Shown here: in pieces, positions 44,396 through 47,350 of the stretch
How positions within the stretch are numbered: the first letter of the stretch is position 1
Layout of the letters: the number at the start of each line of letters is the position of its first letter
Assembly: GCA_903813345.2 (NCBI GenBank)
Contig: CAIIXF020000010.1
Coordinates: forward strand, 20,163,181 to 20,227,180
From: Owenia fusiformis
Lineage: Eukaryota > Annelida > Polychaeta > Sabellida > Oweniidae
DNA length: 64,000 nucleotides
Direction of reading: 5' to 3'
Notes under the pieces: model-generated
What the model was told of the DNA's origin: nothing
What the model saw: only the letters and a program-made list of their open reading frames with translations
Databases searched by the model: none
Position numbers and translations under genes: made by a program

Positions 44396-45057
44396 ATCTA
44401 TTATATTGTTATTACTTTTATATGCTAGTGAATTAAAGTTATTGAACTAGGATATTGATGTATATTTAAACTTCTTAAGAATGAATGTTGTTAAAAAACT
44501 ATATTGGTAGTTACACATTTTCTGCATGTAAGAAACATTGGCATAATTTGTATAAGACACTTTCTTAAAGGCGCCCTATATATTTTGAAAAGATAATTTA
44601 TTCATTTTAAAGTGTTTTTTTATATGGGGCCTTTAACCTATTGAACAAGAGTGCGAGGAAATGCATGTAAAACAACCCAAACAATCTTTATTTATTTTAA
44701 TATGTATTTTAATATAGTTTCACTTGTATAATACATTTTGTTACACATACAGATATAGATTTTAGTTAAATACAACCAGCAAATGGTGGCTTACAAGACT
44801 TGATATGATCGTCTATGAGTCTTTCTATTAGTTAATATCTAAGAATTAAATATGTATAACTTTTGTACATTAATAAAACAGAGTACTATGTTACATCTTA
44901 CAGAATAATATTAATTGTATAGAATCACATATTTCATTGAATATCTTTCAAGACCAAATTATCTTCAAGATTTCAAGATAGAAATGTGAGATTGTTATGT
45001 ACATGTACATAAGATCATATTATTATACAGTATACATATGCTGATATAAACTGTGTT
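44396..45057. other. Gene-free stretch; old DEG/ENaC 3' UTR
   Basis: AT-rich sequence downstream, on the minus strand, of the pre-insertion stop codon of the DEG/ENaC gene. No other gene seen. Confidence 0.4.
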
Positions 45058-45131
45058 TTACTTATGTACAGTGAAGACACTATTAATCTCTTGGTTGTCT
45101 TCTGGCCCCTGTTTGCCATGATTTACACCTT
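45058..45131 (-). pseudogene. Stranded former C-terminal coding end of the DEG/ENaC channel
   Basis: On the minus strand the target-site duplication at 45116-45131 is followed in the channel's reading frame by KQGPEDNQEINSVFTVHK and a TAA at 45058-45060. This is the natural end of the channel gene before the Penelope-like insertion. It is now cut off from the rest by 591 bp and a new in-frame stop. Confidence 0.85.
45116..45131. repeat. Target-site duplication, left copy
   Basis: CCATGATTTACACCTT, identical to 45723-45738. The two copies bracket the inserted retroelement exactly. Confidence 0.92.
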
Positions 45132-45722
45132 AATTAATTATATTTTCCTTTTGTCTTAACCATACCTTGTTTTTTAATTTGTGACGTTTCGTCCAGCATG
45201 GTCGCTTGACTTTTTCGAACTGCTTGAAGTTGATACTTGATCTTGAGAGTTAATTAGCACTTTATTCCACAAACTTGATAATTCGTGATTGCCTGAGTCT
45301 CTATTCATACACTGTTTTTCTTTCTTTATGTAAATTGCCTCTTTTATCCACCGTTTATTTCTCTGACCTTCATTGTCTATAACCTTGACATTATCCCAAT
45401 CAACTACATGGTTCATCTGACGCACATGATCAGTGACTGCTGATTTCCCATATGATGACTGGGCTTCTTTCCTAACACTTCTTGTATACCTAGTCAGTCC
45501 ACAATCAGAGACATCAATCAGAGACTCAGGCAATCACGAATTATCAAGTTTGTGGAATAAAGTGCTAATTAACTCTCAAGATCAAGTATCAACTTCAAGC
45601 AGTTCGAAAAAGTCAAGCGACCATGCTGGACGAAACGTCACAAATTAAAAAACAAGGTATGGTTAAGACAAAAGGAAAATATGATTAATTTAGAAAGACT
45701 AACCAGATGAATTTATTTAGAA
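45132..45722 (-). mobile_element. Truncated Penelope-like retroelement with inverted 3' end
   Basis: 591 bp insertion. A minus-strand frame (45174-45533) encodes 119 residues matching the C-terminal part of a Penelope-like element GIY-YIG endonuclease region: AVTDHVRQMNHVVDWDNVKV, then KRWIKEAIYI, then MNRDSGNHELSSLWNKVL. The reverse transcriptase and the GIY-YIG catalytic start are missing, so it is a dead 5'-truncated copy. The 3' end is present twice in opposite orientation: 45132-45302 and 45520-45690 are 171 bp inverted repeats with at least one mismatch, spaced by 217 bp. A further 32 bp (45691-45722) extends the inverted copy. Family assignment is from recognised motifs; insertion borders are fixed by the 16 bp duplication. 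Confidence 0.82.
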
Positions 45723-47350
45723 CCATGATTTACACCTTTTGGATCTTGTGATGACTTGACTTTCGACTTTTCTCCTAATACCCTTATAATGTCCAAGCAA
45801 AGTATGAAAACCTCAGCCATTGTAATTATCGATACTCCAATGAATATTCCGAGACTTCCACCAATCTCTGATACCATTGACCCAAGCGTAAAATCAGCTT
45901 CCTGTTTGATTATATTTGTCTTCAAATCTTTGAAATACACATTCAAACGGATAAAATTTTGTCGAAAGCTATCTCCTATCTCTTGTTTCACTTCATTCCA
46001 GCTGGTTGAATAAACCACGTACAATTTTTGGCAAAATTCCTTCATTTGGTCATGGTAAGCTTTATAAACACTGGAGTTGTTATAATTTGGAAGGAGTGCA
46101 ATCTTCCCGCAATAAAAGTCGAATTCTACCCCCTGTTTTGGCCATTGAGATTGTGAGAGTGTCATGTCATATGTGTGGAAGCTGCAGTTGTCCTTACATT
46201 GACAGTCATCCTGGTCAAGTACAACATCCCAATTGTATTCATTCATCCCGCATTGTAGCTTCTCCAAGTCATTGAGCAGTGCAGTTATATTTGGATTTTT
46301 CTCTAACCATTCGTTATACTGAATTTTGTTACAGAATTGGACATCTTCTATATCTGGGTACATGGGTAATGATCCAAGTTTACATCCACACGATTTATAA
46401 ACCATCTTCTGGAGGCATCTCATTTGACAAACTTGTGAGTCGTATGCAAAGCCCCCTTCATCTAATAGAGGGTGATCAGTACACTCTCCCCAGGGTGGTT
46501 TCATCAAATCACGTCGCCTAGCAGACAATGCTACATTTACAGAGTGACCACTTTCCACCTCGAATCCTTCATTTTCTGGATCTGGTAGTGTCCCTTTCTC
46601 GTGTATAACAACTCTGACACCTTGGCTCCCAGAAGTTGGGTACTCTGCGTTGAATATCGCAAACAAATCCTCATCTTTGTCTAAGAATAACTGCAGTGAA
46701 AGACCACCTGTTGGGCCAGTTGAATTGATGTAAGGGTTAGAAAGTGTGGTATTGACATTGTTAAATGTAAAACAGTTAAAATAATAGTAATGTTTTACTG
46801 AATGGATATCTTCATCTGAACAGGGTTTTCCCTGATACATACAGGATGAGATAAAGTCACGTTTCTTATGACCATATTCTGTGATCGTTGGTACATTTTC
46901 ATAAAAACCTTGATAGTTGTACAGTTTCTTGTAGAACTTTTCATAGAATTGTTGTTTTTCTGAAGATACCTCTGTGAACAAGGTTGAGTTACGGTCTATT
47001 TGAACCATCTCAAAAAATAATCGTTGCAAGACTGATATAGGCAACGCTGCATCTTCTCCATTCATCATATCTTGAACAAATTTCGAAATGCCTTGTTTAG
47101 AAAGCTGGGTCAGTGGACATACAGTGACTGAAGGAAATAAAAGATCTTGGCGTTCTACTAACACCCTGTCCTTTGTCTCAAAGAGGCTGTACCTGTAGAT
47201 GATAGATGTAACGTGGCCCATAGAGGCGATTGTGCTTGCTATGCAGAAAATTAACCATGCTACTTTTGTACACTTTGATTTTCTCTCATGAATATTTCCC
47301 CAGCCATGGCCAGTTGTTGTTTTTGCAAAGTCACTAATTAATCTTTTCAT
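45713..47350 (-). CDS. DEG/ENaC-family ion channel with transposon-altered C-terminus
   Basis: Amiloride-sensitive-type sodium channel subunit, intronless, 545 aa. Visible landmarks: the N-terminal gating His-Gly (H15-G16 in TTGHGWGNI); TM1 at about 27-52; the post-TM1 motif FPSVTVCP (72-79); a large Cys-rich extracellular domain (PPWGEC, DSQVCQMRCLQKMVYKSCGCKLG, CQCKDNCSFHTYDM); and TM2 at about 495-522 with IGGSLGIFIGVS holding the G-x-S selectivity filter (G505-V-S507). The protein should assemble as a trimer; gating stimulus (peptide, acid, mechanical) is not readable. The last codons lie in transposon-derived DNA: after NHG the frame runs into TCT AAA TAA supplied by the insertion. The original 18-residue end is stranded at 45058-45114. 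TM2 is intact, so the channel is probably still functional. Confidence 0.93.
   Translation of the reverse strand: MKRLISDFAKTTTGHGWGNIHERKSKCTKVAWLIFCIASTIASMGHVTSIIYRYSLFETKDRVLVERQDLLFPSVTVCPLTQLSKQGISKFVQDMMNGEDAALPISVLQRLFFEMVQIDRNSTLFTEVSSEKQQFYEKFYKKLYNYQGFYENVPTITEYGHKKRDFISSCMYQGKPCSDEDIHSVKHYYYFNCFTFNNVNTTLSNPYINSTGPTGGLSLQLFLDKDEDLFAIFNAEYPTSGSQGVRVVIHEKGTLPDPENEGFEVESGHSVNVALSARRRDLMKPPWGECTDHPLLDEGGFAYDSQVCQMRCLQKMVYKSCGCKLGSLPMYPDIEDVQFCNKIQYNEWLEKNPNITALLNDLEKLQCGMNEYNWDVVLDQDDCQCKDNCSFHTYDMTLSQSQWPKQGVEFDFYCGKIALLPNYNNSSVYKAYHDQMKEFCQKLYVVYSTSWNEVKQEIGDSFRQNFIRLNVYFKDLKTNIIKQEADFTLGSMVSEIGGSLGIFIGVSIITMAEVFILCLDIIRVLGEKSKVKSSQDPKGVNHGSK
45723..45738. repeat. Target-site duplication, right copy
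   Basis: CCATGATTTACACCTT, inside the DEG/ENaC coding sequence and encoding its residues at about 538-543 (KGVNHG). Confidence 0.92.

Follow-up and report, generated by a model that had tools for sequence, protein, structure and literature searches.

Retroelements that supply stop codons and poly(A) signals to host genes are a known kind of event, in which the host frame enters antisense sequence of the element and there meets a stop and an AATAAA. The same arrangement is found at the end of a channel gene in the window (the whole stretch of Owenia fusiformis DNA analysed here, 64,000 nucleotides, contig 10, positions 20163181-20227180). The case differs from the known ones in that the element is of the Penelope type, and in that the event is recent, so that the old and the new end of the gene can still be read side by side.

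Elements of the Penelope/Poseidon type are characterized by head-to-head inverted ends, only one of which bears a tail (about 30 nt), by a short target duplication and by an ORF of the RT/GIY-YIG type (PMC3846280, PMC11167929). In a lizard Penelope-like element the tail was explained by two reverse-transcription start sites, both DNA strands being cut (PMC11167929). The insert in the window has the same inverted ends, duplication and single tail, and a probable counterpart of the ORF is found in its relatives. However, just two 5'-truncated 3' ends of the element are left here, in 591 bp. The duplications of this element and its relatives, 11-16 bp, are also somewhat longer than the 8-10 bp described for Penelope-like elements of a rotifer.

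The host gene codes for a DEG/ENaC channel. The ASC domain (PF00858) spans its residues 8-516 with E 1.4e-70, which is nearly the whole protein, and its top solved relative by sequence is the FMRFamide-gated sodium channel 8on7 (E 1.3e-52). Both have the PF00858 domain and they align over residues 4-527 of the window channel, whereas the tail past residue 527 lies outside the alignment; the term FaNaC-like is used here for sequence resemblance. It is very likely that the final codons of this channel gene were hit by a Penelope-like element very recently, and that the insert now gives the channel its terminal S-K and its stop.

The insert at the end of the channel gene

The features on which the argument is built are listed below in the direction of the gene, with positions as in the window.

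45713-47350, minus strand: present DEG/ENaC (FaNaC-like) channel frame, 545 aa, a single open frame (PF00858, E 1.4e-70)
45723-45738, no strand: right (gene-upstream) copy of the target-site duplication, 16 bp, which spans the end of K, all of G-V-N-H and bases 1-2 of the G codon that follows
45132-45722, no strand: Penelope insert, 591 bp, two 5'-truncated copies head to head with their 3' ends outward
45516-45722, sense on the plus strand: shorter Penelope piece, 207 nt; its 3' end, at the right junction, carries the tail
45694-45722, plus strand: Penelope tail, 29 nt, at the right end only; its antisense reading is the new channel end
45712-45717, minus strand: AATAAA poly(A)-signal word (candidate signal), insert-derived, overlapping the new stop
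45713-45715, minus strand: present stop TAA, insert-derived, preceded by the inserted S and K codons (45716-45721)
45132-45515, sense on the minus strand: longer Penelope piece, 384 nt, with the tailless 3' end at 45132 and the last 113 residues of the ORF at 45176-45515
45116-45131, no strand: left (gene-downstream) copy of the target-site duplication, 16 bp
45103-45114, minus strand: stranded old codons K-Q-G-P, matching the K-Q-W-P that ends three paralogues
45058-45102, minus strand: 14 further open codons (EDNQEINSVFTVHK) and a stop, without counterpart in the three closest paralogues (among the best 80 of 137 candidates), which have their stop and 3' UTR there

Copies of the 16-bp direct repeat CCATGATTTACACCTT lie at 45116-45131 and 45723-45738; the rest of the window has none, even at up to two mismatches. 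When shuffled sequence was searched with two mismatches allowed, the mean number of matches was 0.10 and none of 100 shuffles reached two copies; therefore, the repeat is not a product of chance. The 591 bp between the copies (45132-45722) contain inverted arms of 174 nt each, which are 99% complementary and spaced by 217 nt; this internal organization was no part of the original prediction. The shorter piece has the same 3' end as the longer one and 29 nt more, and the 113 residues coded in the longer piece nearly match the end of a 343-aa frame at another locus (L039).

The channel frame is intact (open) from start to end and terminates in ...KGVNHGSK-stop. Read along the gene, the junction has turned the G codon from GGC into GGT, after which come TCT AAA TAA (S, K, stop). 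Since S, K and the stop come from the insert and the AATAAA overlaps this stop, both the stop and the poly(A)-signal word are supplied by the antisense tail. Two further AATAAA words stand inside the insert (45359 and 45266); beyond the insert, going down the gene strand, the next one is at 44696 (scan from 45800 to 44400). We infer that the channel transcript terminates within the insert.

These data agree with the original prediction on the repeat, the insert and the present frame. It had described a 16-bp repeat exactly flanking a 591-bp insert, and the search of the window returned both copies and the same insert length. It had also read KGVNHG in frame in the right copy, then S-K-stop from the insert, in a protein of 545 aa, as our own frame reading does; the stop and the last two residues, which it had called transposon-derived, lie in the insert together with the sequence that follows them.

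Family of the element and design of its copies

The 113 residues coded by the insert are identical or nearly identical to the C-terminus of longer frames elsewhere in the genome. The two longest frames read for the same family (L039 and L040) start at YVDD or directly behind it and include a GIY-YIG-like stretch: PF01541 (GIY-YIG) was found in both, with E 0.0043 and 0.0038 (17.8 and 17.9 bits, below the cutoff of 22.6), and had no match in the 113-residue part of the insert. RVT_1 had no match in L039 and L040 either, and the insert is without the RT region. A 529-aa frame at L061, which shares 37% identity with the L039 frame, has RVT_1 above the cutoff (E 6.7e-13); a second relative, L062, scored 22.8 bits for RVT_1, short of the cutoff of 29.6. 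A Pfam scan of the 113-residue part returned no family up to E 1; a PDB chain matching this part with E 0.22 was taken as chance, and a phmmer search with a longer family frame against PDB returned none up to E 0.01.

We assign the insert to the Penelope-like elements because of its head-to-head design, tail and duplication and because of the relatives L061 and L062. A hammerhead ribozyme motif in the pLTR has been reported in PLEs and was not taken as essential for the assignment. As a difference from the described type, no hammerhead ribozyme was among the five hits in the window stretch (to E 10), and 16 loci that hold related elements yielded none at the gathering score; the 5'-truncated insert may lack the region, and it may be missing from several other copies that are 5'-truncated as well. 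RNA-family hits below the cutoff in the window stretch, two of them snoRNA-like, were treated as chance.

Related copies were looked for in 498 Mb of genome, and 20 stretches around insert matches were fetched. A second family of 14 loci (L061 and 13 others) was picked by eye as close minus/plus pairs, other arrangements being uncounted. The comparison comprised 25 two-ended candidates, 12 from family 1 (the window's included) and 13 from family 2; left out were L072, for which the search for one end failed, the single-ended L018, L020, L022 and L025, and also L027, L029-L032 and L062. Exactly one tailed end was present in 22 of the 25 candidates, none in three and two in none of them. The picture is still more uniform among the copies with a duplication of at least 11 nt (11-16 nt), all 20 of which have one tailed and one tailless end: L013-L017, L019, L021, L023, L026, L061, L063-L065, L068, L069, L071, L073-L075 and the window insert. 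Their duplication measures 16 bp in the window and 11-15 bp in the 19 other copies. In the remaining five candidates none of at least 11 nt was found; two of these have one tail (L067 and L070) and three have no tail (L024, L028 and L066). Within family 1 the window's design is shared by every two-ended copy with a duplication of at least 11 nt (10/10, the window insert and nine others). The claim that the insert is Penelope-like and bounded by a target-site duplication is thus borne out by the head-to-head ends, the single tail and the copies of the same design in the genome.

A candidate tail at the right end of L013 was rejected: the match has three substitutions and crosses the element end into the duplication, none exists at one or two substitutions, and this end was scored as tailless. 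As a control, the family-1 tail word was searched with up to three substitutions in 420 stretches of 150 nt each from channel loci and was found in none of them; the control covers the family-1 word only and not the family-2 word.

On a common ruler the starts of the two arms differ in 9/9 measurable pairs of family-1 copies (nine of the ten copies, as L026 yielded one arm only). Because the arms start at different places among the copies, each copy seems to stem from its own insertion event and not from an inverted unit that moves as a whole. The window insert fits the one-tailed/one-tailless pattern without any peculiarity. In vitro, no apparent difference of start site between the strands is reported (PMC11167929). 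Set against that result, the strict one-of-each pattern may reflect a coupling of the two ends. The 20 one-tailed copies in two families are added data on Penelope insertion, the tail on one inverted end being already published (PMC3846280).

Age of the insertion and the stranded old end

DEG/ENaC frames are abundant in this genome: by our own count at least 57 of 92 rows, with the best 80 of 137 candidates scored, cover at least 500 query residues in one frame, the window's own frame included. Several such frames stand in neighbouring groups on contigs 4, 5, 6 and 8. The closest to the window channel among the best 80 of 137 candidates are three neighbouring frames on contig 6 (L006, L007 and L008), 77-78% identical to it. 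A second haplotype copy of the channel was not found in the assembly, the next-best match among the best 80 of 137 candidates being 78%.

Between the window channel and these three paralogues dN is about 0.125, dS about 0.5 and dN/dS about 0.25, the ratio being an average since the paralogue split that says nothing on the short time after the insertion. The insert itself carries two private substitutions in 591 nt (about 0.3%), which may include reverse-transcription errors; both lie in the longer piece, and next to the inner joint there is one extra base. The longer piece was scored against 10 rows and the shorter against 12, of which one is the window's own other arm; all remaining rows come from six near-identical loci. 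Since about 0.3% of private change stands against a dS of about 0.5 to the paralogues, the insertion is recent, and by this measure the insert is very young.

In the left copy of the repeat the frame continues through NHG and KQGPEDNQEINSVFTVHK to a stop at 45058-45060, which makes 18 further residues and 561 aa in total, exactly as the original prediction had read it. Two of the paralogues end in GVNHEKQWP-stop and one in GVKQWP-stop, and the left-copy frame of the window reads GVNHGKQGP with 14 more codons. Over the first 17 nt of the stranded piece after the repeat, 14 positions match L007 and 12 match L006, as against 3/17 with each for the insert; random stretches equalled the score of the stranded piece in 1/20,000 cases for L007 and 4/20,000 for L006. 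This test took in L006 and L007, while L008, which is gapped there, was left out. Because these 17 nt match L006 and L007 far better than the insert does, the stranded downstream piece is confirmed, on the evidence of the alignment, as the old gene end. The next 43 nt of the stranded piece are similar to L006 or L007 at chance level only. As the three paralogues end at KQWP and there is no likeness to L006 or L007 past 17 nt, homology covers four of the lost residues and not the other 14.

As a matter of frame lengths the change from 561 to 545 aa holds, and a 561-aa open frame, as a lineage-specific extension, is likely for the time just before the insertion; the loss of 18 established residues, by contrast, is not supported, four being covered by homology. 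The alignment of the tail to related channels, which had been proposed as a check, gave the same division: the old gene end matches (KQ.P), but the remaining 14 residues fall in the 3' UTR of the paralogues, and translation or constraint of the 14-codon extension is supported by no comparator. On the plus strand, 45033-45104 over the stranded tail gives a SNORD53/SNORD92-like match of 23.8 bits (gathering score 46), which is probably chance.

One would argue that the old gene already stopped at KQ(W/G)P like its paralogues, that the 14 codons were opened after the insertion by decay, and that the loss amounts to four residues. Indeed, the three closest paralogues among the best 80 of 137 candidates stop exactly there, L006 and L007 have no similarity past 17 nt, and 14 open codons alone are no evidence of coding. 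However, with two private substitutions in 591 nt, about 0.05 changes (our own arithmetic) are expected since the insertion in the 15 nt of KQWP-stop, and in those 15 nt the window and L007 disagree at two sites, of which one belongs to the stop. Additionally, past their own stops the paralogues stay open for just 2-5 codons, and 14 exceeds all three. With so few changes expected, the stop was probably already missing before the insertion; the insert being too young for later decay to be a likely cause of the lost stop, the 14-codon extension was probably already open when the element landed. We consider the four-residue alternative unlikely, and it would alter one detail of the best explanation and not the event.

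Much less probable still is that the insert is spliced out as an intron and the old tail still made, removal of 607 nt restoring the pre-insertion message exactly. The duplication begins with AAG/GT on the gene strand, so that both copies carry a proto-splice site, and by sequence geometry a donor-like AAAAG/GTGTAAAT lies in the upstream copy and ATTAATTAAG/ at the downstream copy, with 607 nt between them. However, this donor is weak (positions +4 to +6 are off the general consensus), the acceptor has no preceding pyrimidine tract, the inserted AATAAA stands early, and by our own arithmetic AGGT is present in about 5% of random 16-mers. The insert would in that case be a newborn, scarless intron, and the channel would have two alternative ends, one being S-K together with the inserted poly(A) signal and the other the old tail; we hold this to be highly improbable, and to our knowledge a Penelope-class retroelement that creates an intron via an AAG/GT duplication would be unusual. 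The least credible possibility is an assembly error or a chance repeat whose copies flank no real insertion, for although inverted repeats are difficult to assemble, the insert ends correspond to the two types of end that other copies of the family have, and the stranded piece matches the paralogues.

Probable consequences for the channel

According to the recent-insertion explanation, a staggered cut would have produced the 16-bp duplication, and each end of the insert would go back to reverse transcription for which one cut strand served as primer. The channel frame now passes through the right copy into the antisense tail, where S, K and a stop overlapping the AATAAA follow, and the transcript would now end at or near this inserted AATAAA. 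The old tail, that is, the four homologous residues and the lineage-specific 14, would no longer be translated. The channel presumably still works, because the cut is C-terminal to the second membrane segment, where the paralogues vary freely.

The original prediction had suggested that the swap of tails may matter via C-terminal motifs. In 27 paralogue tails (20 + 7) inspected by eye, no C-terminal motif common to the channel family was seen; the tails differ in length and sequence and are alike only inside close subgroups, and they lend this suggestion no support. We expect from these comparisons that the effect of the swap on the channel itself is mild or none; any effect is no less likely to come from the altered 3' UTR than from the altered channel end. 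The event was described correctly, but its size and importance were overstated; little protein was changed.

What the locus offers is a clean and very young case of a gene end supplied by a retroelement, which allows a direct comparison of the states before and after the event. Should the insert still be polymorphic, both ends of the channel would be present in one population, and the effects on channel level and trafficking would be testable there.
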